From Mesodorylaimus sp. YZB2_4 (taxonomy: Eukaryota; Nematoda; Enoplea; Dorylaimida; Dorylaimidae), in contig JASANH010001213.1 of the NCBI GenBank assembly GCA_030248295.1, positions 930,001-994,000 on the forward strand: a stretch of 64,000 nucleotides of DNA, given 5' to 3'. The translations under genes and the position numbers were made by a program. The notes under the pieces are model-generated. The model had not been told where the DNA came from, did not search any database, and worked only from the letters and a program-made list of their open reading frames with translations. This document shows positions 1 through 25,092 of this stretch, piece by piece (positions within the stretch are counted from its first letter, which is position 1; every line of letters begins with the position of its first letter).

Positions 1-274
1 CACTTTGCCTTGCACACGAACAGCTCAACTATTGGACCAGTCTGGATCGGCCTGAATGACACGAACCAGGACTTCCTTTGGCTCTGGCGAGATGGTTCTA
101 ATTACAACTGGACTTCGTGGACACCGTCAGTGGAACCGAGGAAGGGATCAGGAACAGATTGTGTTCAAGCCCGACCACTGGTTTCTAGCGCTGATCTGGG
201 GTCGTGGAGTGCAACTACGTGCGGCACGTCTAATGTAGTTCTGTGTCAGCAGCGATTCACACCACGTCGGAATC
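1..274 (+). CDS. Exon F0: second half of a CTLD (window-truncated)
   Basis: Frame 1 from base 1, ending at a GTAAGA donor at 275 in phase 1. It holds VWIGLNDT, the DGSNYNWTSW block and a closing CQQR, which match the F exons of the later units. By alignment with exon F1 only about the first four bases of the exon are cut off by the window. It shows that at least one more unit lies upstream. Confidence 0.85.
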
Positions 275-3200
275 GTAAGACCACATTATTGCACTTGGTT
301 TACTTGTCTGTAGGTGGACTCTGAACTTTTAGCTTGCAAACCTGGTTTTTCATATTTGGATCAATGTACTCGATGTTTCATCCCACTTACGAACTATACC
401 AAGTTACCTCGAGATATGGCTGACGCAGTTTGCGATGCCTTTGGCCTCTCGCTTCCTAGCTTTGACAGCCTAAATGGCTGGATTGCATTCGTTGATTGGG
501 TGTAAGTAGTGCATAGAAACAAGCCTGTTTCTGTGTTTAGTTTCTGACTGCTCCTTCTCAGGGTTAACATTAACACAGCAGCCCATTGGAGAGACAATGA
601 CATCACTTGGCCAATCACTAGCTTTTGGACTGGTCTCAAATACGACGATATTACTATGACATGGCAGAACGACGACGGGCTGACATCATATTCCCCTGGC
701 GTAATTTCAGTTCCAGCTACATCCACTGCAGCTGGTTGCATCGTCAGTGATAAGGCACTGGGTTTCAATTGGTCCACTGTCGACTGTATGAGTCTGAGTG
801 CCAAAAATCTAATTTGCCAAGATGTGTCGAAGAGAAAGGTGTGCCCAGGGTCATTTCGACAAGCTACGCAGACTGTGTGTTATCTGCAGACGACTGCACC
901 AGCGAACACATACGACCAGGCTCTAAGCCAGTGCCAGGCCATTGGTGGTACGCTCCCTAGCTTCCATAACGAATCTGAGTGGGCCGACTTCCTAAAACAA
1001 AGGGAAATTGTTGAAGGGGTACAAGGCTATGCTATTGGAGAATCTGGAATCTGGCTTGGGCTCAAAGACCGTGTGGGCGATGGCACATGGATTTGGGAAG
1101 ACGGGACTAACTTTGATTGGAATTACTGGACCGTGGGTGTGGAACCAATGGGCGGAAATCCATGTGTTATAGCTGATCTCATGCAGGCAGATCTGGCGTG
1201 GAAGACAGAAAGTTGCACGCCAAATGTAAATTATGCGATGATTTGCCAGATGAGGTTGGTTATGCCACCAAATGGTAAACAACCTTAGTTAAGGACAGGG
1301 TCGCTCAAGATGACTTAAACTGCGCTTTCAGCTTGTCCTGATGGTTGGGCACAAATCTATGGACGCTGCTACAAGTTACTCACTCATATCCCGTTTGCAG
1401 TCGACAGCTTCCAAGGCGCCCTCGATTGCAGCGGGGTCGGAGGCATTTTGCCAAGCTATGATTCCATAGAAAATTACGACAGTTTCTTGCTTTGGAAGTA
1501 ATCTCATGCTAATCCGGTTTTTGGACGTCTTTTTCTTATGGTTACATTTTTAGAAAGAACCTAGCCCGAGGAAAAGGCATGAACACCACTGATTTCTTCA
1601 CTGGACTTACACAAATCTCAGTGAGCCCTCACGTGTACACGTGGCCTAATCAAATCCTCATGGGATGGAGTCCTGGACCGTGGGCTGCTGGCCAACCTGG
1701 AGCCGAAGCACAAACCTGTGTTGTCGCCTCAGCCTCGAGCAATTATTCATGGAGTACAGTGCCATGTACTCAGACTGTACCATTCCTGTTCTGTGAACTG
1801 GGCCAGACAAGTAAGTGAGTTTGATCTTTGGTATAAGCCCAAACATTAAAAGATTAGGAATAGCCGCCTGGGCCAGGTTTCACCAAGTTACAAGCAAAAC
1901 AAGTCAAACTTCACACGTTACAAGCTCACAAGTTACGAGTCCACAAGCGACTTGCGTTTCACCAAAATAAGTAATCCATTGACAGCTCCTAGAGTTACAA
2001 GACTTGTTACGGGAGCACTGACACGACTACGAGCAGTTCGGTTTCATAAACTCACAAGCTCTCAGAAAAAGTGGGCGGAGACTCGTAACTTGTGTTGAAT
2101 TTTCTGCGAGTCAGAACGAGATTCGTAGGACTTGTAGCCTTGCTGGTTTTCATCTATTTCCCCTATGTTTTTGCCATGGATCCCTTTCCTTTCGTCATTT
2201 GGCAGATAAATGATTATGGCAGGAGACCAGAATTTGTCTGCTCTTCAAAAGGGGCCCAACTTATCGAAGCACCTTGCCCCCTCTCCTTCCGAAAAATCAA
2301 TGCGCTGCGGCCTTCTGAATTTGGGCTCGTTTACAAGTTCTGTCTCCATCTTTTACAGGTCGCTCTCTACAGGTCCCCTTCGTTACAAGGGCCGGAAAAG
2401 TCGTGGTGAAACGCTCGTTCGTTAGGCTTGTACCTTATTGCCCGTAGTTCTCTATACTTGCAATGTCTTTTTACTTTATGGCCCACAGGCTCCTTGAAAC
2501 CAGGCATTTCTCACGCTTGCACTTCTAACTTGTGAGTTTGTTTGTGGTCAAACGCGGATACTTGTAAAATAGACGCTTGTGGCGCTTGTAACACTAGGAA
2601 GTGCCTCGGTGAAACTGGGCCCAGGTCTTTCCATTTATGCGTTGTTGCGCCCTAGTCAACATTTTGGCATTCATTTAATTTTAGCTGACAACTGCACCGC
2701 GGGATGGAAGCAATTGGACGATGCTTGTTACAAGGTACCCAACTCGTCCGTGGTCACAGGTGTCACGATGGAAGAAGCCCAACAGCTCTGCCAGGCTGAA
2801 GGCGGAGACTTGCCGAGCTTCCACACCGAGAAAGAATGGACTGGGTTTAATATGATGAGGTCAGAATCATTTCGTGCTTTGTACTTTTCTTTCTCCTGGA
2901 GTGCACGTTGCTGCATTTTGTGATGTGACGAACACTTAGCTTACTTTTCACTGCAGGCGTTTCTACGCGGCATCAACTAATGGGTCGACTATTCAAGCAA
3001 TTTGGCTCGGCCTGAATGACACCTCCCAAGATCTAACGTGGTTGTGGAGAGATGGGTCGAATTACAACTGGACGAATTGGGCGCTGCAGCAGCCAGCTGC
3101 GGGTGCCGGAATGGACTGCGTCGCTTCGCCTCCCTTAATAGCTGAGACCGATGATGCCAGGTGGTTAACAGCGACTTGTAATGAACAGAATGCAGTGTTG

Positions 3201-6200
3201 TGCCAACAGCGAATGACCACCTTATCAAATCGTAAGTACGGGAAGTTTATAAGCCCTATGAACCCAGCATCGACCGACCCACCGACCCGACCCGCCGACC
3301 CACCGACCCACCCCCGGGTCGGCCGGGTCGGTTAAATTTTGAATTCCCGCCAAATACTAGCCGCCTACTGCAGTCGAGGCCTGTGCTACTAGAAAATAGA
3401 TACTACATTGTATTTTTTGCGATGCAATTTAAAGATTGTTGGTTTTGATACATTTCGTTTCTCAAAGAAATGCAATGCGATTTTCAGCATATTTCGATTG
3501 ATTATGGTAAAGGGTGAAGCGCCCAAATCCGGAACATCTATGGCCCAAGTCTTCTCAGTGTCTCAAAATTAGGAAGAGAGCGATGTATTTTGAATTTTGT
3601 TTGACTTTTCAGAATCATTTCAGAATTTCAGAAAAAAATGAGAATCACATAACCAGGACCAACCTTTCGTATATGGCCATCTTTTTTCCATAAACGCGTA
3701 TGCTCGCCTGATACGCCAGGCGAAAAGCCTCGTTAAAAATAGCAAGGTATCGGATCAGATGTGCAATCTAGGTGTTCTGGCTTAGGAACCGTTTCGGATT
3801 AGGTCACTTTACCCTATCATCGCCCATCTATGCGATAAGAAAAAATTTTTGTCGAAATCTGGCTTGATTGTACAGTCGAGTCCGCTTAGTATCACCAGCT
3901 CCGGACGGAAAGAAAATGTGACAATATCCGGACTGTGACTTAAACCGAAGTACACACTAAAATGGCAAAAACTTCACTTTTCTGAGTTTTATCACCCTTT
4001 TGTGACCATTTTCGTATATTCCCAACCTTATGAAAGACGCAACGCTTTTCAGACAGTTTCTGTAATCAAAGGAAGTTAAACTTATGAGGATCATCGAATG
4101 AAAGCTGAAGCATAAGGTTCCCCCCCCCCGCCCCTTAATATACGCGTTTTCTTGCTAAAAATCATAGTTTAGGACGATTTTGCACTTTTTCTAGACTGCC
4201 AAGACTATAAATGTGACTTTTTTAATACTTATTTCTCTTGGCCCCGAAATTTATGTGACAACGCGCGGAATGGGTCGAATTCAGTGTGATAATAAGCGAA
4301 CTCAAAATACATACAAAGTATAGGGCGAAATTTCGGGACTTTGAAAACCTGTGATAATAACCGAAGTGTGACATTATCTGGTGTGACTATAAGTGGACCC
4401 GACTGTATAGATTTTAAAAGGAGCAAAATCATGCACTTTGGGTCGGGTCGGGTCGAAAGTGTTAGGCCTGGGTCGGCCGATGCTGGCATGAAGCAACATC
4501 AAACAGAAAGCGAGCGGGGACAATGAAAAGCATGAACCCCGGGAATCGAACCTACACTGCTGAGGTAGTACGGTATGGTTAACATGCTGGCCAAAAATCC
4601 CAATCGTGCAGGTTCAATTCCCACTCGGTGCTTATTTTTGGGTGTCTTTCTGTTTCTCTAAAAGAAAGAGATCTAACAATAAAAAATTGGGTCAAGCAAA
4701 ATGCAGGCAATGTGCCATAGATGGAGTTAAAGCGGCTGACGATGAAAGTGCCCAGTAGCAGACTATAGAGATGTCCAGCAGTCCCCTAAACCAGAACGCG
4801 TAGGTGCAGATACTGTAAAGATACCCTCGGCTCTGCACACGCGTCCTACAGTAGTGAAACATGGTTTTGGTACATCGTTATTAGCCGCTCGTTTCACACC
4901 TTTCCAGCATGCAAACCTGGTTTCGCCTATCTGGAAGAATGCTCTCGCTGTTTTATTCCTCTGAGCAACTACACGAATCTCTCTTATGACATGGCTGATA
5001 CAATTTGCGATGCGTTTGGATTATCGTTACCAAGTTTTGATAGCAGCAGTGGCTGGACTGATTTTGTTGCCTGGATGTAAGTTAGGATGGGTTGTAGCCT
5101 ACTATTGACCGCTCTGTGTCATTTCGATTTAAGAAATAATACCAACAGTGCCATTCGCTGGTCTCCGGACGACATAGCCTGGCCGATCGGTGATTTTTGG
5201 ATAGGATTACGATACGACATTTTAATCGGCAGCTGGAAATTCAGTGATACAGCCACAGTTTATGCAGGAAACGTTGCCGCAATTCCTACCTTCTCAGGTG
5301 GAACCGCCTGTGTCATCAGCCAAGCATCATCTGGCCACAAATGGACCAACGTCGACTGCCTAGCCCAGAAGGCATCGAGTCTAGTTTGCCAAGATGTGCC
5401 GAAACAGAAAGTTTGCCCTGGCTCCTTCAGACAGGCTACAGAAACTGTGTGTTACCTTCAATCTGGCCAATCAGCAGCCACTTATGACCAGGCCCAGAGT
5501 CAATGTCAAGCAATCGGAGGAGCATTGCCCAGCTTCCACAACAAGTCTGAATGGAGTGATTTCCTGAAACAGAAGGCTGTTGTTGAGGCCATTCAAGGAT
5601 ATGCCATGAGGGAGCCAGGCCTATGGATTGGACTGAAGGACAATCAGGGTGATGGGACCTGGGTGTGGGAAGACGGGACCAACTTCGATTGGAACTACTG
5701 GGCCATTGGCGTTGAGCCGAACATTGGAAACCCTTGCGTTGTGGCTGATTTCACGCAGCCTGAGTTTGCATGGAAGTCAGAAACCTGCAGTCCGTCTGTT
5801 GGCTACGCAGTAATTTGCCAGCTGCGGTTGGTCAAGCCACCGAACAGTGAGTCTTTGTGAGTACAGTATATGTTGCTTAGATGAGAACATCGCTGCTTTA
5901 TTGTAGCATGTCCACCGGGCTGGGCGCAAATCAACGGCCATTGCTACAGGCTTTTGAACCAGATAAAGCACTTGGTCGATAGCCAGCAGGGCATTATGGA
6001 TTGCAGCGGTGTTGGCGGAGTGCTGCCGAGTTACGACTCCTTGGCGCACTATCAAAATTTCTTGCTTTGGAAGTAAGCTGACGATATATCATCGTCAAGA
6101 AATTGCATCTAGACGGTGGTTTTTCCTTTAGGACGAACTTAGCCCGTGGGAAGGACATGAACGCAACAGATTTCATCACTGGCATTGTGCAGGTGTCTGC

Positions 6201-9200
6201 TAGCCCTTTCGTTTACCAGTACCCGAACCAGACTTTGATGAACTGGTCGCCCATGCCTTGGGCAGCTGGCCAACCTGGTCCCAATTCTCAGACATGCGTT
6301 GTTGCTTTGTCGTCTAACAATTATTCATGGAGTGCAGTCCCGTGCAAACAGATGGTCGCATCGTTGTTTTGCGAATTAGGGACACCAGGTAAGATCAGTG
6401 CTGTATTGCGGGTGCCGTTGACCTAAATACAGTGCTCACGGTGTTTGCAGAAAACAACTGCACCACCGGCTGGAAGCAAATCGGAGACAGCTGCTACAAA
6501 TCTCCCAACGCCACTTTGGTTACAAGTGCGAACAACACTGTGAGTGCAAGCGAGGCGGAGGAGATGTGCCAAGCGGAAGGCGGAAGTCTGCCCAGTTTTC
6601 ATTCATTGCAAGAATGGATAGACTTCAACACCATCAGGTATGTGCCTAAGCTATGTAGTACAGTTCTATATCTCTAAATCCCTCTCATAGACGCTCCTAC
6701 GCCCTCGAAACGAACGGATCGAGCATCGGAACAGTCTGGATCGGTCTCCATGATTCCACCCGGAATTTGGTCTGGGAATGGGCTGACGGCTCGAACTACA
6801 ACTGGACATATTGGAAAGCCAATCAAGAGCCAACATTGGGACTTGGAATGGACTGCGTGGTGTCACAGCCATTGACTTCAGATCCTGATAGTGGACCATG
6901 GGCGAGAGCAACTTGCGATTCCAAAAATGGAGTGGTGTGCCAACAGAGGATGACTGGGCTAAGGAATCGTAAGTCGACTTGTGGTTTATCTTACTTTTGG
7001 CCTAACGAAAGCATAGCGATAGAAAAGAAAGAAGAGCTCGCATGAAGGATACGAAATAGATTTTCGACTTACTGTTAAGCAGTTACAGGTTACACTTGTT
7101 AGATTTGTCAAAACAGTCCCATGAGGTCGCCCAGGTATGGCCTAGTAAAAACCTTGCAGGTATTTCTTTGCTTCAGCGTGCAAGCCTGGATTTGCCTATT
7201 TGGAGAAATGCGGTCGCTGTTTTATTCCTTTGGCCAATTACACAAACTTGCCCCGTGATATGGCTCAGGCAGTTTGTGACTCTCTTGGATTAACGCTGCC
7301 AAGCTTCGACAGTGCAGCTGGATGGAGAGCATTTGTTGATTGGATGTAAGCGAACGCGTACGCTTCCTTAGCCACCCTAGGGCTCCTGAATCTCCTTTTG
7401 GGCAGGATTGCATTATCAGCAATTCTGGGCGGTCGGGAAATCCATATTTTTACTTAGTAGAGAGGCATCGGAGCGGTCGGTTTACTGTTTCAGCCGTCTT
7501 TCCACTTTGCCTTGAAGGTATTCTTGCTAGGAGTTTTTGTCCCACTATACACGTATACACTATGCACTATACACGTAACAGTCCCTCCTTATATTGTAGA
7601 ACCAACGCCAATACCGCTGCCCACTGGTCAAACGCCGACTTGGCGTGGCCAATTTCCAGTTTTTGGGTTGGTCTGAAATACTCTTCCTTTTCTGCCGCTT
7701 GGCAATACGACGACGACCAGACACGATACGACCCGACCTTGTTTTCCTTTTTATCGTCCATTGGAACCGATTGCATCCTAACCAGTGGTGCACCCGCTTT
7801 CAACTGGACCAGTGCAAACTGTCTGAAAACCACTGCTAAAAATCTAATTTGCCAGGACGTTCCTAAGGCGGACATGTGTCCGAACTCATTCCGACAAGCG
7901 TCCCCCAACATGTGCTACCTGCAGACGACCCCGTCTTCTTCCTCTTATGACCAAGCCCTTAGTCAATGCAGGAACATCGGGGGAACTTTGCCCAGTTTCC
8001 ACAATCTGTCTGAATGGAACGATTTCCTGAATCAGAAAGCTACCGTAGAAGCTATCCAAGGGTATCCCCTAGTTGAGAAAGGAATTTGGATCGGTCTGAA
8101 GGATAGCGTAGGTGATGGCACTTGGGTGTGGGAAGACGGATCCAACTTTCATTGGAATTACTGGACCGTGGGTATTGAACCGACCATCGGAAAAGCTTGC
8201 GTCATAGCTGACACGACGCAAGCTGATTTGGCTTGGAAGACAGAGAGCTGCACAGGGGCAGTCAGCTACGCTATGATTTGTCAGTTGAGGCTAGTTCCTC
8301 AGCGAAACAGTAAGTGCATGGTTTCTGACATTTTGTGAGTAGGTTTCCAAAACTTTGTTTCAGTTTGCCCTAACGGATGGGCGCAGATCAACAGCCGTTG
8401 CTACAAGTTACTGAACCAAGTGGCACTTCCTGTGGACAGTAATCGGGGCACGACTAATTGCAGTGCTGTCGGTGGAATATTGCCAACTTTTAGCTCATTG
8501 GAGAACTATCAAAATTTCTTGTTATGGAAGTAGGCAGAGTTTCATGGATTTTTCCAGAGGTAGTAAGCAAGCACCGATGCTTCAGGGAAAATCTCGCTCG
8601 TGGCAAGAACATGGTCACAACTGACTTCTTCACTGGTCTATCCCAAATCTCGGTCAGTCCACACATGTACGAGTGGTCTGATCAGACCATCTTGGATTGG
8701 ACTCCAGCGCCGTGGGCAGCTGGCCAGCCCGGACCTGATCCCAGAACGTGCATCGTAGCTTTCGCAGCGACAAATTACACGTGGAATACAGCGGCATGCA
8801 CGCAAACAGTGGGCTCCTTGTTTTGCGAGCTTGGAACAAAGAGTAAAAGAGGCGTGTATTTGTCGGGAAGCCTGCTGTATGCACTATTTGTTCCAGAGGA
8901 CAATTGCACGATGGGGTGGAAACAGATAAGCGACAGTTGCTATAAGGTGCCAGCTTCCGCTTTGGTTGGAAATAGCACGACATTGACTGGAGCTGAAGCG
9001 AGCGACCTGTGCCGAGAAGAAGGCGGAGACGTGCCAAGCTTCCACTCGATGAAGGAATGGGAGGACTTCAATATTATCAGGTAAGGATGCAGTTGTTCGA
9101 TCTCACGGGCAGCTACTGCTCTTGAGGCATTATCAAGCACTAGACTGATAATGAGTGTCGGCCATCAGCTCACGAGAGCACATTTATTGCTATTCAGGCG

Positions 9201-12200
9201 GTATTACTCACTTGATACCAATGGATCGACCACAAGGACAGTTTGGATTGGTTTGAATAACACATTGGAAGACGCGTTGTGGCAGTGGGCTGATGGATCC
9301 AACTACAATTGGACATATTGGAAGTCGAAACAGGAACCCACCATGGGAACACTGTTGCATTGTGCCACATCACAGGCGCTGGTTACAGAGGCTGATGATG
9401 GACCGTGGAGCACGAGCAACTGCGACACAAAGCATGCTGTTATATGCCAACAGCGGATGGGTTCACTGAGCAATCGTAAGTTAGCATAGACCGTATAGAA
9501 ACACTGATCGGAGCAATTCTAAGACCGTCGCTCGCTGACTGCAGGATAATTTACTGTACGCGCGGGGATATTATGGGTAATTTATAAAATCGCACGCCAG
9601 CATGGTGACCGCATTACGCGTGCAAGCAAGGCATCAATGCCAGCTGTCTGCAAATGTAGGGAGATCATGCCAAGTCATGGTTTGCTGTACACGCCACATC
9701 AGCAGATATGCATTCCAGAGGCTGGAACTGCTGGTCAGAAGAATGGTAGTTCTGTCCCATGTTGTGAGTGTACTCTATCTTTCTCTCTTGATTGGGCCTC
9801 GAGCTCTTGGCATGTCAACCAGTTGATGTTTTGGTCTCCGACTTCTTTGGAGTCTAAGGTTTTTGGTTTTCAGTTACAGTATTTTGTCGCTGTTTTGCCT
9901 AATCTGATTCGGGGAAACACCATCGTGGGATGATGGTGAAATGCTACATGAGCTGTAAGATGCTTGGGCTCTTGGTATCCTGAGCACAGCTGGATTTGTT
10001 GATGTCTCTCAAATCGAAGACTGCTGCTCTTAGTAATCAGGATCTTTTGAGGAAATGACGTTACAGTCCGCTCATAGTCAGTAGAGCCAATAAATCTACT
10101 ATTCATGCTGCAATCACCTTCAAGGAGCACATTTCCTTTTTTTCTTCAGCTTGCAAACCCGGCTTTGCGTATTTGGATGAGTGCTCAAGGTGTTTCACAC
10201 ATTTAACCAACTTCACATCACTTTCGCGCGACGTAGCCGACGCAGTTTGCGATACGTACGGGCTATCTCTTCCGAGCTTTGACAGCGCGAACGGTTGGAC
10301 TGCATTCAAGAACTGGGTGTAAGCTCATACTAGTCAAGTCAGATCAAGTCATTGGGCCTTAAATTTTTTTAACATGCAGGAACAACTCGAACGTTGCTGT
10401 CCACTGGAAACTGAATGATGCCGCATGGCCTGTCAGCGATTTCTGGATTGGGGTGAAACGCGACAGCAACCTGTTCTTACCTTGGACATATGACGATACC
10501 ATGACTGTGTTCGACTCCGTCACATTCCCCCTGTCCACCATTTCCACTGGTACCGACTGCGTGATCAGTAGGCAGTCTACTGTCTTCTCTTGGGAGGGCG
10601 AAGCGTGCCGATCGACGGCGAACAATCTGATCTGCCAAGATGTGCCAAAAGAGAAGACTTGTCCTGGATCCTACAGGCAAGCGGCTTTGACAACATGCTA
10701 CCTGCAAAGAGCTCCTTCCGGCTCATACGCTCAGGCCCTGAGCCAGTGCCACGCAGCCGGTGGAACTCTGCCCAGTTTTCACAACCAGTCGGAATGGAAC
10801 GACTTCTTAACTCAAAAAGAAATTGTGGAAGTACTGCAAGGCTATGCGCTCTCTGAACCTGGATTATGGATAGGGCTGAGGGATGGTATTGGAGACGGTA
10901 CTTGGATATGGGAAGACAGGACCAGTTTTATCTGGAGCCATTGGACATCGGGACAACCTATCATCGGGCACAGATGTGTTGTGGCAGATGTCACGCAACC
11001 TGATCTGGCTTGGAGAACTGAAGCATGCAATACGACAGTGAACTACAATGTGATTTGCCAACTGAGGTTGGCCACTCCTCCAACTGGTAAGGCATATCTT
11101 TCTGGGCAAACTCATGCAGTGCGCCCAAGACAGTAATGCTTTCAGTGAACAACTGCACGAGTGGCTGGGAGCAGGTTGGCGACAGCTGCTACAAAGTGCC
11201 AAATGCATCACTCAGCAAAAATGATACCTACACGATGGACGAAGCCAAGGCATTATGCAGAGCTGAGGGAGGGGATGTACCTAGCTTCCATTCCTTGAAA
11301 GAATGGATGGACTACAACATGATGAGGTAACTACTTGAAAAAACAGTGAGAATCACTTGATATGTGTCACTGGTTCAACCTGTGTGGAGTGGGAAAACAT
11401 GTCTGTATTCCAGCGAACTTTTTAAAATAAGACCGTTGGGGTATTTTTTCAAAGCTCGTCTATGAGGGGCCCAAAGCTTGGATAAGCAAGTATCTAGATA
11501 AATAGGGACCGTATCTGTTGAGAGATTAAAAACAGCTCGTCTGCCTTTTACCCCCATTGGAGTGCCCCGAGACCGGCTTGGGCGACTGCAAAAGTAGCTT
11601 TAGGTTTAGCGCATAATCGAGCATTGATGGTATGTGCAGTATACCCACTCTTTATGCCCATACCTTTGCTCAGTGATGCGTGGTCCAACACGAACATGCC
11701 TTTTCCAGGTGGTATTATGCCCTGGACACTAACGGATCTTCAACGAAAACTATTTGGATTGGCCTCAGTAATAACGACACCTCTGATAACATGCTGTGGC
11801 AATGGGCGGATGGTTCCAATTACAACTGGACCTATTGGAGACCCAGGCAGGAGCCTGCCGTTGGTGCCTGTGTGCAATCCGACCCCCTTGCACTAGAAAG
11901 CGACGATGGCAAATGGAGTGCGACAACATGCGAAACAAAGAACGCAGTTCTATGCCAACAAAGACTGACTGATATGGGAAACCGTAAGTTAGAATCCTTG
12001 ATTTGAGAATTTTGCAGTGACAAAAGCCTACTTTTCAGCATGCAAACCAGGTTTTGCCTTCTTGGAACAATGTGGCAGATGTTTTATTCCTTTCTCCAAT
12101 TACACTCTTCTCCCGCGCGACATAGCTGATGCAGTGTGTGACGCTCATGGGTTATCGCTGCCCAGTTTCGAGACTCAAAGTGGATGGAAAGCATTCGTCG

Positions 12201-15200: not shown

Positions 15201-15733
15201 TCTTGTTTAGGGGGGAGAAGACGAGGAGGAGGAGGATAAAGATCAACCTAGAGCAACAACCGGACATCGTGCAGCAGTGAAACTAAGTTTTTCTAAAAGC
15301 TTAAACTTTTAGAATCTGCCTTTTCACACAGATTTTTCAAAAGCATTCATTTCTAAAAAGTTACAGAATTCCTAAAAAAGGCCTAGTGTTTTTTGGCCTT
15401 TTTAAACCGTCACTCGTCAGATACCGGACGAATTTCGATAATAATTGACATGATTGCAGATCTGACCTATCTTGCAAAGCTTGCGAAAAATCAACTTTTT
15501 TGGTTCAATCGTTCTTGAGTTATCGACTATCGAAAGTAGTGAGCTCTGGTGTTTCTGTTCTTATATTTTTGGCGCGATGTTTAGAAACATCAACTGAACG
15601 GGTTGAGGCGCAGCGCCATTGATTGGCTAGGCTCAGCGGGCTCCAACCAAGATGTTCATGTTCATGTTCATGTTTTACCACATCACCAAACGCTTATGCG
15701 CACCGGGGGGAAGGACACTCCACCCCCCCCCCG

Positions 15734-15768
<35 letters not shown>

Positions 15769-16122
15769 GGGGGGGGGGGGGGGGGGGGGTGGGGGATGGG
15801 TTTGGTGCACAGCAATAAATTTGCCGGTAATAAATTGAGAATATGTGAACGAATATAAATATGTGAAAAGAGTTTCCGTGGGCAGCACATATTTTATTTG
15901 ATGCGGAGGTAATAGTATTGGGAAAAATTCGAGCTAATAGTAACTTGAAAAACGTTGCGGATCCTGAATTTCTGATTCTGAGGGAACAGAAGTTCAGATC
16001 ACCCCGAGCATGACCCAGTTCTTTTTAGGCTGGCTTCAGTCTTGGATAGGTTGTCCCTTTTTACATAGTTTATTTAGTTTGTTTAGAGCATATGTCAGGC
16101 GCGCATCCAGCGGGGGGGCGCA

Positions 16123-16181
<59 letters not shown>

Positions 16182-19100
16182 AAAAAAAAAAAACACAAAA
16201 CAAAACAAAAAAAACCAACACAACACCAACCACACCACCCCCGCCCCCCCCCCCCCCCCCCCCCCCAAAAAAACTATGTAATTTAATGCAGAGAGTGGCT
16301 TTTCAACAGCACTTTTGTTTTCCGACCACGAGGCTCTCAGTTCGACTCCTTCACGGTTTAGAATTTTTGGTTTTTGTTTCTCTTCTTTCCACGAGACAGA
16401 CGAACGTTATTGCGAACAAGGAATATAAGGGTGGTCCTTGACTATTTTGCCCAGTCAGAGATAAGGTTTCAGGAGTGACAGATGCATAAAAGAAGTACTT
16501 AATTTGTTGTTTTTCCTGCCGCCTGTACATCTTGGTACATATTCGAAAAATCTGTGCATTTCATCGGTAAGAGTTTCTGACTAGTATGAAATGATCGATC
16601 GGTGAGGTGTTTTGGGCCAAACCAGTTTGTAGCAAAAAAACGAAAAACGGGCTCATTATTTCCAAAAAAGTCTGTTATGACAGATTCGAAACTTTTAGAC
16701 CAGCCAATGCACACAGTGGAACCAGGGCTTAGAATGGCTGGTCTACTCGGCCACTGCTAAGCCCAACCACGGTCTAGGAAAAAGTCTGAGCAGAAGCTGC
16801 TTTATCGGCATGAATATCAACAGGACGACTGATCCTGGCAACGAGCAGAGGATCCTGTAATCCTGTGCTTGTGGTCTACATAGTAGGCTAGGAGTGTCGA
16901 ACTCTCAGGCTATGCGCGCACATGCTCATAGCGGGTAATGTTCAAGCCGCGGCTAGGTAAATCATTTTGTGTTATGTATCCCTTTATCCTCAAGCGGTTC
17001 AGTACTGATATGATAAACCATGAGCCTGAACATAAAGTTGGAAGGAGGGGGGAAAGATTGCTGAGAGTGTCTCTCGAGGTTTAGGCATTTAAGGATAAGC
17101 CATATCACTTTACTCGCAGCGCTACAGCTTTAGCCTAGTCAGGTTGCTCGTATGAAACAGCAAAGCTGACTTTGGAGAGCCTGTCTGAACATCAGCAGTA
17201 CACAGAATACAGGCTTTGTGGCTTTGATGCTGACCTCTAAATGCATGCATACAGTATATGTGCGAGTGATTCTACGTACACTGTGTGCAGTGCGCAGCAT
17301 GTCGGGCCACCTCTCCTTTTTCTTGTGGCCGAGTAGACCAGCCATTCTAAGCCCTGGTTCCACTGAGTGCATTGGCTGGTCTAAACGTTCCGAATCTGTC
17401 ATAACAGTTTTTTTTGGAAATAATTGTCACTTGCCCTAAACATCCTGCTTTCTTCTTGCACACCCGTATTTGACAGCATTTAGAAGATGTCGTACTGCAG
17501 CATCTGAACGTACTGTATCCGTATTTGACAGCTGTTTCTGCTCGCTGCAAGGATCCAGGCTAGCCCTGAGAAAAATCGATCCATCCGCCAATCTGTCGCA
17601 GATTGCATCCACTTATTGTGAAGTTGCATGTTATGGAATTGTCGAGATTTTAACAAATACAGACTATGTTTCATTATCTTACGAAGACTCTAATTCTATG
17701 GGTGGCTGATGTTCTTTTAGGCGTTTCTTTGCCCCCGACACAAACGGTACATCGACCAAAACTATTTGGATTGGCATGAACGACACGTCACAGAATTTTG
17801 TGTGGCAATGGATGGATGAGTCGAACTACAATTGGACCTTTTGGAAAGCCCTGGAACAGCCTGCGACGGGGCCTGGATTGGACTGCGTTGCATCGCAGCC
17901 ATTGATTTCAGACAGCGATAAGGGACCATGGATAACGGAGAGATGCAATTCGAAACATGCTGTCCTCTGCCAACAACGGCTCACAGATTTAAGAAATCGT
18001 AATCGTTTTTATTGCTTTGTTAGGTGACCTGAGAGCATTTCTCGGAGCCCTTGACCCTGATGGCCAGAGTGAATGAGACTCCCGCCGAGGCCTCGGACGA
18101 CGACTCTGTCACCTGGTGCATATGGCCGCGTGATGTCATTGGCAAACATGCTCCTCCCCTTACCCTGATAAGGTGACTGACTTCTTTCAGCCTGCAAACC
18201 CGGTTTCGTCTACTTGGAACAATGCGATCGCTGTTTTCTCCCTCTTACAACCTACACTCAAGTATCCCGGGACACGGCTGATGCAATTTGCGACTCTCTC
18301 AGTCTATCTCTACCAAGTTTTGCTTCCAAGAGCGCATGGACAGCTTTTTCAGGCTGGGTGTAAGCTTCTCTTGAGAACTCAATGGATAGTCCTTCCTACT
18401 TCCTTTTTAGGAATAACTCCAACTTGGCTGTTCGTTGGTCGAAGAACGACTCGGCGTGGCCGATCATGGATTTCTGGATTGGAGTGAGAAGCGTCAGCAA
18501 CAAATCCAACAGTTGGCAGTACGACGATAGCCTCACAATATTTGACCCGACTGCCTTCCCCCTCCAGCCTGGCTCATCTGGTGCTGGGTGTGCCATCAGT
18601 CGTTTCTCAGCTGACCCTACCTGGATTAATGCGGACTGTGGACAAAACGCGACCAATCTGATCTGTCAGGATGTGCCTAGGACTAAATCGTGCCCAGGCT
18701 CATTCCGACAAGCGGCATCGACTGTTTGCTACCTTCCTACATCCCCGTCTTCGAATTCGTACGAGCGGGCCCTTGCCCAATGCCAATCCAGTGGAGGCAC
18801 TCTGCCTAGTTTCCACAACCAATCGGAATGGAACGATTTCGTCAAACAGAAGGAAATAGTAGAGATTCTGCAAGGATCGATCCTCAGTCAGCCGGGTGTT
18901 TGGATCGGGTTGAAAGATTTGGGCGGAGATGGCAGCTGGTTCTGGGAAGACAAGACTGTTTTCGATTGGACTCACTGGTCTTCAGGTCAGCCAGTCATTG
19001 GACAAAGCTGCGTTGTGGCTGATTTGGGCCAGTCGACTTTGACCTGGAAAACTGTGGATTGCAACTCGACTGTTACATATCGAGCAATTTGTCAGCTGCG

Positions 19101-22100
19101 GCTGGTGCCGCCTCCTAAATGTAAGTATACATCTGGTTCTGGTGGGTGGGCTTTTACGCATTTACGCATGGCTTGGCACACAAATTAAAGCGAGCACAGT
19201 CGGGAGTGATTGCAAGCGTTATACAGTATGCGGTTCCTTTTTTCTAGCTGACAATTGCACTGATGAATGGAAGCAAATCGGAGACAGCTGTTTCAAGATT
19301 CCAAATACATCCCTGATTAGCAATGGTAGTGCAATAAACGGTACCCTGGCGATGGACGATGCTGAAGAGTTGTGCAAAATGGAAGGCGGAGACATTCCTA
19401 GTTTCCACTCGCTAAAAGAATGGAATGAGTTCAATTGGATGAGGTAAAATGCGAGTAATTGAGGCTTAAAATGCCGTGACACAAGATATAAACCCTCCTT
19501 CCAGACGTTTTTATGCCTCTGAAACCAATGGCTCGTCGATAAAATCAGTCTGGATCGGTCTCAGAGACAATGCACAAACGTGGCAATGGCAAGATGGCTC
19601 AAACTACAACTGGACCTATTGGAAAACCCCGCAACCGGTCGCGGGCGCTGGGTTAAGCTGTGCCGTCTCGCAAGCCTTGCCCTCAACTCATGACGACGGC
19701 TCTTGGGTCAGCGCCATGTGTGATTCCAAAAGCGCAGTGATGTGCCAGCAGCGCTTGACACCGTTGCGAAATCGTATGTTTTTTGTGCTTTCTTCTGGAA
19801 GAGGACTCTTCTTGATTTGGTCCTCCTGACTGTCTTACTGCCGCAGTAGCTCAATTGTCTAATCCAACCTTGCTATCTCTTACTTGTTGCATTTCAGCTT
19901 GCAAGCCCGGCTTTGTCTTCTTGGATGCATGCTCACGTTGCTTCATACCCATGACCAACTATGCTGCCCTATCTCGAGATATTGCCGATGCCATCTGTGA
20001 CAGCCACGGACTGTCATTGCCCAGCTTTTCTAGTGCTGATGCCTGGGCAGCATTCATCGGTTGGATGTACGTTGAACAGTTCTCCTGAAGGAAATGGGTC
20101 TCAGAAATTTTGTTTTCAGAAATAACGTGAACACTGGTGTTCGTTGGGGCCACGATGATGTCGACTGGCCAATACAAGGATTCTGGATTGGAGTCAAAAG
20201 CATCAGTGACGTCTCCAGTAATTGGCAATATGACGATGACGTGACAAGCTTCGATTCCACGGCCTTTCCTCTGCCTATTGGCATCACAGGCTCTGACTGT
20301 CTTATGGGCAAGATGGCCCCCATGTTCAATTGGACAATGGTCAGCTGTCTGAAAAATACCACTAGCCTGATATGCCAAGACATACCCAAACAGAAAACCT
20401 GCCCTGGATCATATCGCCAAGCCACCTCGACCGTTTGCTATCTGGACGCACTTTCCGCAACCAGCTCTTATGAAGATGCTCTGGATAAGTGTCGAGAGAC
20501 TGGTGGAACTTTGCCTAGTGTCCATAATTCGTCGGAATGGAGTGACTTCATGAAACAAAAGGACATAGTTGAGGTTTTTCAACGAGGTGCCTTGGTCGAG
20601 CCAGGAGTATGGATTGGACTGAAAAACGAGGGTGAAGGATCGTGGGGCTGGGCAGATAAGACTAATTTCGACTGGGCTCATTGGACGGCGGGTGGCGAGC
20701 CTGCACCTGGGCGTAAGTGTGTGGTGGGCGATGTGGCCAAGGCGGATCTGACGTGGAAAGCGGTGGATTGCAGTGGGGCTGTAAAGTACCGTGTTATCTG
20801 CCAACTTAGGTTGGCGATGCCGCCCAACGGTAAGTGAGACCATATGCTACTTGGTGTACCTTTACTTAATTACCGTAGCTTCCTGGTGGCTCCAGTCATT
20901 CAACTCACATTTGGGTCGGCCTCTGACTGGAATGTGTTGGAAATTTCTCGTTGAATAAGCTTAATGGACTACAGAACAGCCTAAATGCTAGCTGGTCATC
21001 TTCATTTTAGACACCAACGACAACTGCACCGAGGGCTGGAAACAAGTCGGTAGCAACTGCTATAAGCAGCCCGGTGCACCATTAGATACCCCCTCCAATA
21101 AGACGTTCAACTTGACCGAGGCTGAAACTGCGTGCCAAGAAGAAGGGGGCGACTTGCCCAGCTTCCACTCATTAGAAGAATGGCTGGACTTTGTCAAAAT
21201 GAGGTAAGCTTCGGCATCGCTTACAGGATTAGCTTGCACTGCTGCTTTTAACTATTCAGGAACATTATCGCCTCCAAAGAAGGCGCATCAAAAGCCATTT
21301 GGCTCGGACTGGCAGACAAAAATCAAAACCTAATGTGGGAATGGCGAGATGGTTCCAATTACAACTGGACCTACTGGAATCCTGGATTGGAATCTCGCGT
21401 CGGTGCGGGATTGGATTGCGTCGTGTCGCCCTCTTTGGACAAGACTCCGGACGGAGCCTGGATCAGTAGCTCGTGTATGGATCAGTATGGTGTTGTGTGC
21501 CAGCAAAGGCTGACACCACTTGGCAATCGTAAGTGCACCCTTCCGCAAACACTGTAGCACCTCTTTTTAATGCCCCGTTTCAGCATGCCCACAGGGATGG
21601 TCATCGATTGGCAGACGATGCTACCAGATTTTACCCCAGCACACAAAGGTATCGTTCGAGGATGCAACGGACGCGTGTCTCGCAGTCAATGGAACCCTGC
21701 CATCGTACGAGACGCAGCACCAGTGGCTTCTATTTATGGCCTGGAAAGCCAATTTCGCTCGTGCGGCCTGGCTGAATACAACCAGTTTCTGGATCAACGC
21801 TCTTTTCAATGCCACTGGTAACTCATCCGCCTGGCAGTGGGGTGATTACGTGACAGCATGGAAATGGACCAACTGGCTCACCCTGCCTCCAACTGACCAT
21901 TGCATACTTGCTGATTCGAATAACGGCTACCATTGGAATCACGCTGACTGCGCGAATTCCACTGTGGCCAACGTGATTTGCCAATACATCGATTACCCAA
22001 CGGGAGTCAAGCTGAGCAAGTGGTCAGCCTGGGGACCGTGCTCGGCCACTTGCGATTCCGCCCGTCAAAGAAGAAATAGGAACGCAAGTATTGACACGTT

Positions 22101-25092
22101 ATCGACAGACGATTCTACCACTGGCCAAGAATTAGATGAAGTTCGGGTTTGTCTGACCGATTACTGCTGTAAGTTTGGAGCTCCTGCCCTTGATCAAGCT
22201 AGTAAGACTTGTTTTTTAGTGTACTACTGGCCGGGCGTGGGTCTTCAGTTTAGGGTAAGATTGTGTGCACTTGGTTGTGTGATCGCCGCCATGCCTTTGC
22301 CTCATTTAGAGCAGCGCAGTCGATCGACTAGCCCTGGACGCCTTGACGAATGCTGTGATGGAATACCTGATTGTGCAAGTCAACGAATCGGAAAGATATC
22401 GAGCCGGTGTGCACTGGAGCAGTATCATATTTGACTGCTATTACAATCAGAAGCATTGCGATATACCCGAGTAAGCTGCCGCAGTCGTTTTTTTTGCAAT
22501 CTCTAATCGACTTTCCTAATTAGCGATTTCAACATGACTCTTAATACGAAACTGGGCAATTGTTATACCTTCAATTTTGATAGTGTCACACCAAAATACA
22601 GGGTGGATCGAACAGGCAGAATTGCTGGTAATCTCGTCAAAGATATCCCATTTTGTCAACTATTAACAGTTTCCGTTTTCAGGCTTGGCTATATGGCTGG
22701 AAAGTGTGAGCGATGATAGCCTTTGTCACACTGAAGCGTTTGGTTTCAAGATTCTGATTCATCCTCAAAGTGAATTTCCATTCCCAGATTCCTTGGGATT
22801 CAACCTGGATACGGTTTCCGTCTTGGATGTGATGCTCTTGCAGGTGAGGCATCTATGCAGCAGCTTTTGTCAGTGTGGTTCTGACATCTGACTAGCAGAC
22901 AGTAGAGTCAGATGCTCGAATATCTTCTTTAGGCAGGTAAAATGCTCGCTGTGCTTTTTATGTCCTGATTACTTGCAGTCCGAATGTCTGTTGTCCTACT
23001 GTATGGCCTTCAAATGTCGGTGTCCAAAAGTCGGGTCACCTCCGTTCATACAGTACTTGCTGGGTGAGCACTGTGGTAAAAATGCACAGGCTTGTGAATT
23101 AGGATGTGTATTCAAACGAGCAGGGGCCTGCGAGGTGTGGGACATATATACATTGAAAACGGACATAAAAATCGACATATAAATTCTTATTTCTGATTCT
23201 TGATTTGAAACCGAAGCCATTGCTTCAAATTTTGCATACCTACTGATTCATACTTAGGAATCAGGAATTAAATATTTCTGCTGTACATAACAATGGCGAC
23301 CTTTCACTTGTCATAAGGTCATTCTCAAACATAATCCTCAATCTGACTTAATCTTGCGTGACATAATCGGCATGTTTTCTGCTGCAGGAGCAATATAACA
23401 GGCTCTCCAGCCCGTACGGTGACTGTGTCAGTGATAAGACAAAATCTTATCTGTATCCAGGAGACTACTCAATCGAGGTGAGTCAGAAACATGGTGCATA
23501 TACTGGGAAAATAAGGTTATCTACGATCAGGCCTGCATGAGGACCTGCTATCAAGAAACCATTGTGGCATTCTGTGGATGCGGTGATCCAAATTATCCAC
23601 TTCCGCCAGGGGCCAAGTATTGTCTTATCGATTACAGTAAGTACTGCAGAAGCACATGGTGAGGACTATTGCCACCCTCGGGGTTTCTGCGAGGCGCCAC
23701 TTCAACAATGTAGCCGGGCTTCAAATGCTCGCTTTCTTCACCTCGACCGAACAGCAGACAGCATTTATAGCTGCGTCTATTTTCTTAACGAAAACTGATA
23801 ATGTCTTGTTTCAGAGCCTTGTGTCGACCTTGTGTATGATTGTTTGAGCAGTGAAATAGAGGAATCATGCAACTGTCCGATGCCGTGCCAGTAAGAACAA
23901 GCTTTTTGCTGTCAGAAAAGACGTATCACTTCTGACTTTCCTTTTAGCCAAACTCTCTATTACCAAGTTCAAACAAAGTCAAAGATGCGACGGATTGATT
24001 GGGAAACGGTAAAAATAAAAAATGCTTAGTGTTCTCTTTTTTACAACAGTTAAGCCGCACTGATTTCAGGATTGCTATTTCCGAAACGTGACCAATGTGA
24101 CATCGTGTTTGGATGAATTTGATGAAAGAAAGTTTGCAGTTATGAAAATATATTATGGAAACAAACGGCAAACAGTTTATGAAGAAGTGCCTGAGATAAG
24201 CGTAAGCAAGATTTGGAAGGGTTGTAGCCGGGGTTCTGGGACAGACTCCTTTGCTTGGGGCCACTTTCACGTGTTGGATATTGTAAGACCTTACGATCAG
24301 TCTCCCAACAAATAGATATACTGTAGGATGCAGTTGCTTACTCGACCGCACCGTACAAGGCATAAGAAGGAGACTGACTAGCATACCAACAGAAGGTTAT
24401 TAGTGCAACTCATGGAAACAAAAGAAGACAAGGGAACCAGTCAGCATGACCTGTACCCGATGTTGACAGAGGCCTAACAGGGCAAAGGTAATAGGAACGC
24501 ATACGACATGATTATCATACTGTAGTGCTCGAACTAGATCTTATGTTTCCCCCTTAAGCTGAAAGTATAGTTCGATGCGATGCGTCAAATAAGCTTGCGA
24601 TGCGACGTTTTAGGCACCTTTTTCATTGTCAGTTGACCCAAAAGTGCCGCATCGCACGCTTATTTGACGCAGCGCATCGAACTATACTTTGGGCTTTACA
24701 GTGTGGCCTAAATTTTAGGATATCTGAACAGTAAAACCTAAATCATAGTGCTATGGCCGTCCTAAATTTGGGGCATGTCGTAGACGATTGTGAAAGTGGT
24801 CCGTGGGGCCATGGGGATTGTTCTCCTTGCATTAGTTATCGTTACTTTTTTTGTAAGGATAAAATAGAAAGAAGCTCTTGATTTTCTTGTTTAGCTTCTG
24901 GATCTGCTGAGCGACGTGACTGGCATGGCTCAGCTTCTGATCAATATCGATGGCATTGGTGTCATGGAAATCCTATTGTTAATGGTATTCGTAATTTTGG
25001 AACTGGCCAAAATTTCGATGTGCCCAAATTTGCCTGTACCCAGTGAGCCAGTGGAACCATCTCATCACTTGCGTGTTCCAGGCTCCCATTGA
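1..25092 (+). CDS. Giant multi-CTLD / thrombospondin repeat / DEG-ENaC channel-like protein (3' part, 5' end outside window)
   Basis: Fifty exons join into one open frame of 13,971 nt (about 4,656 aa) ending TGA at 25090-25092. The start lies upstream of the window. Order: half CTLD (1-274), eight tandem units of three or four CTLDs, a final CTLD plus TSP1 repeat (21584-22168), then the DEG/ENaC extracellular core and TM2 (22220-25092). By my count there are 28 complete CTLDs plus the half. CTLDs show the WIGL core, conserved Cys pairs and many N-x-S/T sites, so the array is very likely extracellular. DEG/ENaC proteins are trimeric Na+ channels with two membrane helices. TM1 is not in the window and would have to lie upstream. 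Every exon junction agrees in phase, which argues against chance joining of two genes. The exact CTLD ligands are unknown, because the classical EPN and WND calcium/sugar residues are mostly missing. A transcript is needed to exclude two adjacent genes with a shared reading frame. Confidence 0.85.
333..3231 (+). repeat. CTLD unit 1 (exons A-B-C-D-E-F, four CTLDs)
   Basis: Exons: A 333-501, B 562-1274, C 1332-1497, D 1554-1810, E 2685-2859, F 2957-3231. CTLD1 is A plus the first half of B. CTLD2 is the second half of B, with no intron. CTLD3 is C+D and CTLD4 is E+F. Introns inside a CTLD are phase 2 and introns between CTLDs are phase 1. Landmarks are CKPGF at the start of A, CPGSFRQA in B, CPDGWAQI in C, NLARGKGM in D, DNCTAGWKQL in E and DGSNYNWTNW in F. 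The D-E intron (1811-2684) holds an inverted-repeat element, described separately. Confidence 0.88.
1867..2626. mobile_element. Inverted-repeat (MITE-like) element in a CTLD intron
   Basis: The left end reads CCTGGGCCAGGTTTCACC. The right end reads, in reverse complement, GACCTGGGCCCAGTTTCACC. Next to both ends are short repeats of the CTTGTAAC/GTTACAAG type, in opposite orientation. The element is about 760 bp with no convincing transposase frame. It fills most of the D-E intron of unit 1. The transposon family is unknown. Confidence 0.6.
3268..4487. mobile_element. GACCC-repeat terminal-inverted-repeat element, copy 1 (F1-A2 intron)
   Basis: It begins CAGCATCGACCGACCC followed by GACCC-type repeats. 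It ends with GGGTCGGGTCGGGTC repeats and GGTCGGCCGATGCTG, the inverted match. Just inside the left end lies AATTCCCGCCAAATA, which occurs inverted in copy 2 near 34520. No coding frame is seen. A second element (3873-4405) is nested in it. The flanks share ATGAA, which would fit a decayed target-site duplication. Confidence 0.6.
3873..4405. mobile_element. TA-flanked Tc1/mariner-pogo-like MITE, copy 1 (nested)
   Basis: Left end CAGTCGAGTCCGCTTA, right end inverted (TAAGTGGACCCGACTG). Both ends are bordered by TA (3871-3872, 4406-4407), the usual target duplication of Tc1/mariner/pogo elements. It is 533 bp, non-coding and AT-rich. A truncated, oppositely oriented relative is at 31719. It inserted into the GACCC-repeat element, so it is the younger of the two. 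Confidence 0.65.
4537..4634 (+). other. tRNA-like sequence (possible SINE head)
   Basis: A B-box-like AGGTTCAATTCCC lies at about 4608-4620, with a weak A-box-like stretch about 40 bp upstream. The acceptor stem pairs only in part, so this is not a working tRNA. A tRNA-derived SINE head or tRNA pseudogene fits best. It lies in the F1-A2 intron. Confidence 0.3.
4908..6968 (+). repeat. CTLD unit 2 (exons A-F, four CTLDs)
   Basis: Exons: A 4908-5076, B 5134-5846, C 5907-6072, D 6132-6388, E 6451-6637, F 6691-6968. A, C and D are exactly as long as in unit 1 (169, 166, 257 nt), and B is also 713 nt. It has the same six-exon order and phases as unit 1. Unlike unit 1, all introns inside it are short (about 50-65 bp), so it is probably the cleanest example of the full unit. 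Confidence 0.88.
7177..9475 (+). repeat. CTLD unit 3 (exons A-F, four CTLDs)
   Basis: Exons: A 7177-7345, B 7600-8309, C 8364-8529, D 8586-8842, E 8897-9080, F 9198-9475. It is the last unit that carries the C+D domain. The A-B intron is longer (254 bp) and B is one codon shorter than in units 1 and 2. The phases are unchanged. Confidence 0.88.
9476..10149 (+). other. Intron F3-A4 of the giant gene
   Basis: 674 bp between exon F of unit 3 and exon A of unit 4. Short chance frames are present. I see no domain, inverted ends or copy elsewhere in the window. Confidence 0.5.
10150..11983 (+). repeat. CTLD unit 4 (exons A-B-E-F, three CTLDs)
   Basis: Exons: A 10150-10318, B 10380-11086, E 11146-11326, F 11709-11983. 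Exon B is followed within 60 bp by an E-type exon (VNNCTSGWEQVG), so the C+D CTLD is absent. Both the B/C and D/E junctions are phase 1, so losing C+D keeps the frame. The E-F intron is 382 bp and I see no gene or clear repeat in it. Confidence 0.87.
12039..13543 (+). repeat. CTLD unit 5 (exons A-B-E-F)
   Basis: Exons: A 12039-12207, B 12260-12966, E 13023-13212, F 13266-13543. It is very compact, with introns of 52-56 bp. It has the same three-CTLD layout as unit 4. B reads FWIGVR and WKYDD in the first CTLD and IWLGLKD in the second. The close similarity to unit 4 suggests recent tandem copying of the three-CTLD form. Confidence 0.87.
15722..15789. repeat. Poly-C tract followed directly by poly-G tract
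   Basis: About 45 C (one G interruption) at 15722-15766, then 23 G at 15767-15789. The two halves can pair into a hairpin. Such tracts are common sequencing or assembly trouble spots, so the length may be wrong. It lies in an intron. Confidence 0.9.
15815..17435. mobile_element. hAT-associated repeat, fragmented copy in intron E6-F6
   Basis: 15815-16030 and 16530-16755 match, as reverse complement, the stretches 49830-49950 and 49480-49820. 17190-17430 matches 49350-49590 in direct orientation. The shared core TGGCCGAGTAGACCAGCC thus occurs inverted at both ends of the stretch 16.5-17.4 kb. At 49-51 kb the same sequence leads into a hAT-like transposase relic, so these are probably non-coding parts of that element. 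Confidence 0.6.
16124..16266. repeat. Poly-A, A-rich and poly-C tract
   Basis: A run of about 57 A from 16124 to 16180, an A/C-rich stretch to about 16238, then a C run to 16266. The A run could be a retroposon tail or polymerase slippage. No coding sequence is involved. Confidence 0.85.
18191..19773 (+). repeat. CTLD unit 7 (exons A-B-E-F)
   Basis: Exons: A 18191-18359, B 18411-19120, E 19248-19443, F 19505-19773. Exon F is 269 nt, three codons shorter than in units 2, 3, 5 and 6. It shares this length with unit 8, which suggests these two units are sisters. Confidence 0.86.
19898..21528 (+). repeat. CTLD unit 8 (exons A-B-E-F, last unit)
   Basis: Exons: A 19898-20066 (donor GTACGT), B 20120-20829, E 21011-21203, F 21260-21528. 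The B-E intron is 181 bp. It is the last full unit before the terminal CTLD-TSP1 exon. Exon A is 169 nt, as in all other units. Confidence 0.86.
21584..22168 (+). CDS. Terminal CTLD plus thrombospondin type-1 repeat exon
   Basis: One 585-nt exon, phase 1 on both sides. The first about 135 residues form a CTLD that starts CPQGWSSIGRRCY and so resembles the C+D type, but the internal phase-2 intron is absent. This CTLD keeps WNHADC near its end. The last about 55 residues are a TSP1 repeat: WSAWGPCSATC followed by Arg-rich RQRRNR and a closing VCLTDYCC. TSP1 repeats are extracellular adhesion modules. It links the lectin-domain array to the channel core that follows, and the donor GTAAGT is at 22169. 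Confidence 0.85.
22220..25092 (+). CDS. DEG/ENaC channel core and TM2 (C-terminal module of the giant gene)
   Basis: Ten exons: 22220-22254, 22310-22470, 22524-22627, 22683-22843, 23388-23477, 23531-23636, 23815-23890, 23948-24008, 24070-24201, 24895-25092. Family landmarks in order: IIFDCYYNQKHC (finger), KLGNCYTFNF, GFKILIH, PYGDCVSD, ACMRTCYQ with CGCGDP (nematode-degenerin-like), a Cys-rich thumb (ESCNCPMPC), YEEVPEIS, and TM2 starting LLSDVTGMAQ. The C-terminal tail after TM2 is about 27 residues. The pre-finger segment that normally follows TM1 (FPAVTICN-like) is not seen. The pore triplet that is usually G/S-x-S reads N-I-D. The intron 24202-24894 contains two repeats described separately. 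Nine of the ten exons are strongly supported; the first (35 nt) rests on phase alone. Confidence 0.87.
24338..24555. repeat. Dispersed ~220-bp repeat, copy 1
   Basis: It matches 59539-59755 in the same orientation over its whole length. Shared stretches include GGAGACTGACTA-like, AAACAAAAGAAGACAAGGGA, GTACCCGAT and ATGATTATCAT. It lies in the last intron of the channel module. No coding frame or clear inverted ends are seen. Confidence 0.65.
24562..24690. repeat. Foldback (hairpin) element in the last intron
   Basis: The left arm starts AAAGTATAGTTCGATGCG and continues through TCAAATAAGC. The right arm ends CGCATCGAACTATACTTT and contains GCTTATTTGACGC. The arms are about 45-50 bp and pair nearly perfectly across a loop of about 35 bp. 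It looks like a small MITE immediately next to repeat copy 1. Confidence 0.7.

Follow-up and report, generated by a model that had tools for sequence, protein, structure and literature searches.

Results

The window analysed here is a stretch of 64,000 nucleotides (C21:930001-994000, + strand), and one large gene occupies its positions 1-25092. The curated splice model of this part has 49 exons, which keep a single frame of 4,646 amino acids with one terminal stop. The domain order is a half C-type lectin-like domain (CTLD), 28 CTLDs, one TSP1 repeat and a DEG/ENaC part ending in TM2 (Table 1). A sequence-only reading of the same DNA had counted 50 exons in one frame. The single frame held and the count did not. 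Its series of modules, a half CTLD and 28 more CTLDs with a TSP1 repeat leading into DEG/ENaC blocks, was recovered with identical counts and is matched by Pfam TSP_1, Lectin_C and ASC. Exon family, phase and splice site guided the curation, which replaced a first automatic splice model that missed several DEG exons and contained false ones.

Table 1. Features of the window, numbered from its first base
Feature	Position	Strand	Support or remark
Second half of D-type CTLD	1-274	+	Exon start at window -3 in longer model
CTLD array (exons 2-39 of the part in the window) with 27 complete CTLDs, which fall into four recurring types; intron phases 1/2	333-21528	+	Pfam Lectin_C 2.2e-12 on one module
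Exon with last CTLD and TSP1 repeat (TSP1 at 22012-22167); alternative end 22168	21584-22254	+	Pfam TSP_1, Lectin_C; TSP1_spondin profile scores under the Pfam cut-off on the TSP1 repeat
Phase-0 junction intron of 55 nt from lectin/TSP1 to DEG; 22169-22319 is an in-frame alternative in phase 1	22255-22309	+	
DEG/ENaC ectodomain from finger on, 8 exons; GNCYTFN, PYGDC, CGCGDP and CNCPMPC blocks	22310-24201	+	ASC profile 137-453; ENaC/ASIC matches
Last exon, coding for N-I-D at the filter columns (24943-24951), TM2 with its hydrophobic core (24952-25008) and a short C-tail up to the stop	24895-25092	+	
Next gene downstream	26516-27283	+	PI31_Prot_N domain (3.3e-6)
TSR2-like (WGG)	29216-29809		
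STAT DNA-binding piece	33200-33706		
SH2 piece	36046-36807		
ABC transporter piece	42156-42431		
Reverse transcriptase fragment	47959-48366	-	
MULE transposase beside FLYWCH finger	51785-53417	-	
Srx-type serpentine receptor	54723-55526	-	PF10328, 1.6e-17
Sulfotransferase	61157-61729	-	

The rest of the window carries other genes and pieces of genes. The next gene downstream is presumably FBXO7-like. The Srx family, one member of which lies on the minus strand, is best known from nematodes.

The splice models demand an open frame and GT-AG introns, and the lack of stops and the GT-AG borders are thus partly built in. Therefore, neither is taken as independent evidence. Two regularities are not built into the models. 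The phases of all CTLD introns of the window (39 of 39) alternate 1,2,1,2, and module exons of the same type are constant in length (e.g. 169, 707-713, 257 and 278 nt). The Pfam profile Lectin_C matched sampled modules at 2.2e-12 and 1.6e-17, and TSP_1 matched the gene with E-values of 2.7e-5, 1.3e-4 and 9.9e-5 (22.5-24.7 bits against a cut-off of 21.6). The ASC profile (PF00858) was matched with an E-value of 5.5e-44 over positions 137-453 of 455, which means that the N-terminal third of the channel domain is missing. The best relatives in a PDB sequence search were an ENaC alpha chain (5e-23, matched from its position 277 on), ASIC1 (1.3e-20) and ENaC gamma. A hydrophobic segment (KD 2.41) is aligned to the TM2 columns, and the exon boundaries of the DEG part are common to ordinary DEG genes of the same genome. 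The fusion of lectin array, TSP1 repeat and DEG part in one gene is very probably real.

The window holds the 3' part of the gene, which spans about 898,775-955,092 of C21. In the 60 kb upstream that were examined (of a 145 Mb genome), CTLD exons extend for about 31 kb. The full model has 119 exons and encodes 11,347 amino acids; its 118 introns have a median of 59 nt and are all GT-AG, as the method demanded. It contains 73 CTLDs, counted at i-E <= 1e-5 with a profile trained on the window modules. The first ten introns are less regular in phase, and the alternation holds from the eleventh up to the last CTLD intron. In building the upstream model, five short extra exons were dropped, a sixth was merged into an extended first-module exon, the first exon was trimmed to its ATG, and all 18 predicted exons before window -31357 were dropped. 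The first exon lies near window -31225 and has a weak donor, AAG|GTATAT. The N terminus, MMHLEIMLLVWFSSFSNGQNQ, looks by eye like a signal peptide, with MMHLEIMLLVWFSSFSNGQ as the signal-like stretch. A further hydrophobic stretch, VTVKIVFMVIEFQVIIVEV, is found in the first module at residues 69-87 (window about -30970, KD 2.09) and is absent from the homologues on contig C441.

The full model carries 232 N-glycosylation sequons and 481 cysteines. EPN or QPD together with WND are the calcium and sugar motifs of CTLDs. As string counts, regardless of position, EPN, QPD and WND occur in 2, 6 and 13 of the 73 modules. Because these strings are found in so few modules, classical calcium-dependent sugar binding may be lacking in many of the CTLDs. 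At the DNA level, parts of the array are 94-98% identical, so assembly effects could bear on the exact number of CTLDs. Between window -15954 and -3819, segments of 1.0-1.1 kb are repeated at 88-95% identity, and a 191-base segment recurs at 98% identity (window -13930 and -5538). Recent duplication, conversion or partial mis-assembly would account for the near-identical segments. The dN/dS values were 0.19 and 0.34 for two pairs of repeated array exons, and dN was about 0.3 in two compared pairs.

DEG/ENaC channels carry an FPAVTxC strand motif, and both TM1 and this strand were searched for. A regular expression for FPAVTIC-like motifs found nothing on either strand of 124 kb, made up of 60 kb upstream and the window. 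A profile from TM1 to FPAVTICN, built from 11 sequences (eight database matches and three genes of the same genome), gave only noise over the same 60 kb and the window, with at most 10.8 bits. No TM1/FPAVTxC exon turned up in the 28.6 kb upstream of where the model begins, and the TM1 profile had no match at E < 1 on the + strand of C441:2001-42000. As a positive control, the profile located the TM1/FPAVTxC exons in all five ordinary genes with enough upstream sequence, none of which was used in building it (C7a, C7b and C290b and, over distances of about 9 and 10.5 kb, C114 and C79). The remaining ordinary genes stood outside the control, having too little upstream sequence or starting within a giant exon. 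TM1 is probably truly absent from the window gene. The sequence-only reading had offered two histories, one with lectin modules inserted between TM1 and the finger and the other with a lectin-array gene that captured the distal half of a channel, and had suggested looking for TM1 upstream. That search yielded no TM1 above noise in 60 kb by regular expression or profile. Since no TM1/FPAVTxC exon was found and a signal-peptide-like exon comes first, the gene is better explained as a lectin gene joined to the distal half of a channel than as an array within a complete channel. The capture also gains from the same breakpoint at three loci, where the ASC match starts at profile position 137 (window gene), 139 (C305) and 138 (C441 g3).

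The splice between TSP1 and DEG has two in-frame choices, 22254|22310 with the 55-nt intron in phase 0, and 22168|22320 in phase 1. The latter was preferred until the homologous intron proved to be compatible with phase 0, and it is still in frame. A phase-0 acceptor precedes the finger exon in all ten ordinary paralogues examined, some of which allow other phases too, and is also present in C305, C441 g1 and C441 g3. As the phase-0 acceptor exists in the paralogues and 22254|22310 matches its phase, the CTLD/TSP1 exons appear to have been swapped in at this intron, replacing the 5' exons of a DEG gene.

As read from their DNA, CTLD-led DEG genes form a family in this genome; C305 and C441 g3 break at the same place, and C206 looks alike. 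C305 (minus strand) is a short gene with a signal-peptide-like start, a CTLD-like module, 167 amino acids devoid of a Pfam match, a TSP1 repeat and an ASC match (profile 139-454, E 5.8e-38). Its Met and signal-peptide-like stretch, by eye clearer than that of the window gene, lie in the same exon as its CTLD. This CTLD was recognised by an in-house profile only (20.7 bits) and has no Pfam match. Only 264 bases of contig precede the start of C305, and an upstream TM1 exon could lie beyond the contig end at this locus. On C441, g2 and g3 show CTLD and DEG exons, and g1 shows the DEG core only, in the DNA examined. In g3, about eight CTLDs are present; the exon with the final CTLD half also encodes a Ser/Thr-rich stretch (~1,300 aa), and DEG exons follow with an ASC match from profile position 138 (3.1e-35). 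Further N-terminal modules lie at 44 kb of C441. In g2 (about 14-20 kb), reverse-transcriptase-like sequence was seen by eye between the CTLD and DEG exons, and this gene may be disrupted.

The N-terminal modules of the window gene are collinear with those of g2 and g3, and a genome search with them gave ten matches, on C441 (8), C206 (1) and C21 (1). C206, read in the stretches outside 15-58.5 kb, has CTLD exons at 11-15 kb and, at 62-68 kb, a weak CTLD (13.6 bits) that is followed directly by a mucin-like exon and then by DEG exons; no TM1 match was obtained on the DEG strand in the 7.4 kb before these DEG exons. When 22 DEG cores were placed on a tree, one change, with support of 79/82, sufficed for the five marked as CTLD-led (the window gene, C305 and C441 g1-g3); g1 is so marked by resemblance only, the window gene and C305 have long branches and four rows shorter than 120 aa were dropped. 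For g1 and g3, dN/dS was 0.21 when pooled over five DEG exon pieces with TM2 (single pieces 0.04-0.50). One CTLD pair of C441 with five changes gave 1.04.

The selectivity filter of DEG/ENaC channels is of the G-x-S type. The filter columns of the window gene read N-I-D, not G-x-S. In ordinary genes they are G-M-S (C290), G-F-S (C7b), G-A-S (C14, C30), S-L-S (C11), G-x-C (C387, C114, C79) or S-x-C (C233), and G-M-D in C7a, in a piece running over an exon end. The other fusion loci have G-F-C (C305) and S-I-C or S-I-S (C441). The filter position thus varies widely, ordinary paralogues included, and in the genes compared the first place is taken by G or S in all but the window gene. The conservation of TM2 relative to the ectodomain did not separate fusion genes from ordinary genes. 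The difference in identity (TM2 minus ectodomain) was -0.18, -0.35 and -0.41 for three C441 pairs, +0.02, -0.07 and -0.11 for three other fusion pairs, and -0.24 to +0.13 for 15 ordinary pairs. Because TM1 was not found and the filter columns depart from G-x-S, the window gene is not to be classed as a DEG/ENaC channel. Its product is unlikely to conduct ions alone. The missing TM1 and the N-I-D columns also weaken the earlier suggestion of a mechanical tether built into a channel.

A different layout was found at C114 (270001-288000) and C79 (365001-383000). Both have TM1 and FPxVSACN exons, followed by about 9 and 10.5 kb of other ectodomain and by the finger core. The TM1 part of C114 reaches 19.8 bits with ASC, below the cut-off. 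Its ectodomain contains an IgGFc_binding domain (4.7e-18; this domain was tested in C114 only). Weak MopE-like motifs or repeats and long mucin-like stretches are present besides in C114 and C79, and no CTLD was found in either. At C11:1117001-1127000, an open stretch (3-4988) of 1,662 aa of repeats with the signature 'DPPDGxDNDCDG..DDDGDGLxDEDL' lies directly before a DEG core. A genome-wide ASC search, in which 93 of 1085 candidates were scored, gave at least 114 pieces, many of them clustered on C17, C290, C233 and C64. The DEG/ENaC complement of the genome would therefore be very large. No piece on C21 was among the matches listed; a protein query does find the window exons. The two DEG genes of C7 group with nematode DEG proteins on the tree (98/96).

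Discussion

The window gene holds lectin, TSP1 and DEG/ENaC modules in one frame and in this order, the N-terminal third of the channel domain is missing, and the arrangement recurs at other loci. In the explanation proposed here, CTLD/TSP1 exons would have taken the place of the 5' exons of a DEG/ENaC gene (those for TM1, the FPAVTxC strand and the first finger part), probably at the phase-0 intron, and the lectin array would then have grown by tandem duplication. The predicted product starts with a signal peptide and about 73 CTLDs, and one TSP1 repeat leads into a cysteine-rich DEG/ENaC stalk from the finger onward. TM2 would be the sole membrane anchor, with a tail of about 30 residues and a presumed type I topology after signal cleavage. 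The main work of such a protein is most likely binding or adhesion by its very long string of modules. The DEG part would serve as a folded membrane-proximal stalk, to which full DEG subunits might perhaps dock, and the protein may assist genuine DEG subunits as an auxiliary partner. We prefer, with a probability of about 0.6, to read the product as a lectin-like surface protein of type I on a DEG-derived stalk, rather than as a channel by itself.

The gene could instead encode a complete DEG/ENaC subunit, whose TM1 exon is either too diverged to be recognised or placed over 28 kb upstream of the first CTLD exon, and whose lectin array is a giant insertion at the GRIP site. Such a layout, with other modules, is present in the paralogues C114 and C79, and the breakpoint is near the finger helices that flank GRIP in ENaC, according to the available part of the source (PMC6197857). 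The hydrophobic stretch at model residues 69-87 and the end of the C305 contig 264 bases before the start of that gene are also in its favour. Against it stand the lack of a match above noise in 60 kb upstream and on the + strand of C441:2001-42000, the shared exon of Met, signal-peptide-like stretch and CTLD in C305, and N-I-D at the filter. A complete subunit is therefore unlikely.

It is improbable that the gene is decaying or an assembly artefact, with a DEG end that is a relic or an array length that is partly mis-assembled. The filter motif is lost, array segments of 94-98% identity could be mis-joined, and C441 g2 has its reverse-transcriptase-like sequence (by eye) between CTLD and DEG exons. 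However, the module exons retain their length and phase, many units are strongly different (dN about 0.3 in the two compared pairs), and dN/dS is 0.19 and 0.34 for two array pairs and 0.21 for the DEG pieces of C441 g1/g3. It is very hard to credit that this DNA holds two genes, the first of them for lectin/TSP1 modules and stopping near 22200-22430, the second a DEG gene or fragment from near 22310 on: the TSP1 exon frame is open unspliced to 22431 and a truncated lectin product is possible, but the gap is just 55-151 nt with in-frame splice sites, order, strand and breakpoint are repeated in C305 and C441 g3, and the weak CTLD, mucin-like and DEG exons of C206 are consecutive.

Beyond the preferred reading of a lectin-like surface protein, a speculative and rather doubtful extension can be imagined. 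The CTLD-led chains that lack TM1 might be obligate partners of the TM1-bearing DEG subunits with giant ectodomains in a 'split', adhesion-gated channel, in which both would co-assemble via finger, thumb and TM2. Ligand binding, or a pull on the lectin string of 10,900 residues, would be passed to a shared ectodomain ring, and gating would be brought about by cell-surface or matrix sugars or proteins.

A family with no TM1 found, a seeming signal-peptide start and up to about 73 lectin modules suggests that the distal half of DEG/ENaC can evolve as a unit. It offers a natural test of the role of the TM1-side half in assembly, gating or conduction. The sister design, which keeps TM1 and has thousands of residues near the GRIP site, would be a natural experiment on how much insertion the gating domain tolerates.

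No CTLD-DEG fusion was found in protein databases among chains of 2555-8130 residues (970 candidates) or 1045-3325 residues (5593 candidates), and for lengths of 451-1437 ASC was the sole Pfam domain in all 11 matches; these searches need shared exact 5-mers and would miss distant kin and chains above 8,130 aa. A literature search, which may miss in part the papers spelling DEG/ENaC with a slash, found no protein of this architecture. Within these limits, the statement of the sequence-only reading that it knew of no described protein so built stands.

The superfamily is described, in the available part of one source, as two-TM subunits in trimers (PMC9822975). With the DEG/ENaC subunits (ENaC, ASIC and degenerins; PF00858), the window gene has in common the ectodomain from the finger on, the cysteine-rich blocks and TM2; it differs by the TM1/FPAVTxC part, which was not found, by N-I-D at the filter columns and by the leading CTLDs and TSP1 repeat. 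In the part of PMC6197857 available, the GRIP domain of ENaC sits between finger helices 1 and 2, and the replacement in the window gene starts close to this site. GRIP, as described there, is a small beta-strand insertion in a complete subunit, whereas in the window gene everything N-terminal of the site is replaced. C114 and C79 resemble the window gene in that large extracellular stretches precede the finger exons at the same place, but they keep TM1 and the FPxV strand, with no CTLD found. Multi-CTLD receptors of the mannose-receptor type have a signal peptide, a string of about 8-10 CTLDs, one TM and a short tail. The predicted topology of the window gene product would be alike. It differs in having about 73 CTLDs instead of about 8-10, and a stalk and TM derived from DEG.
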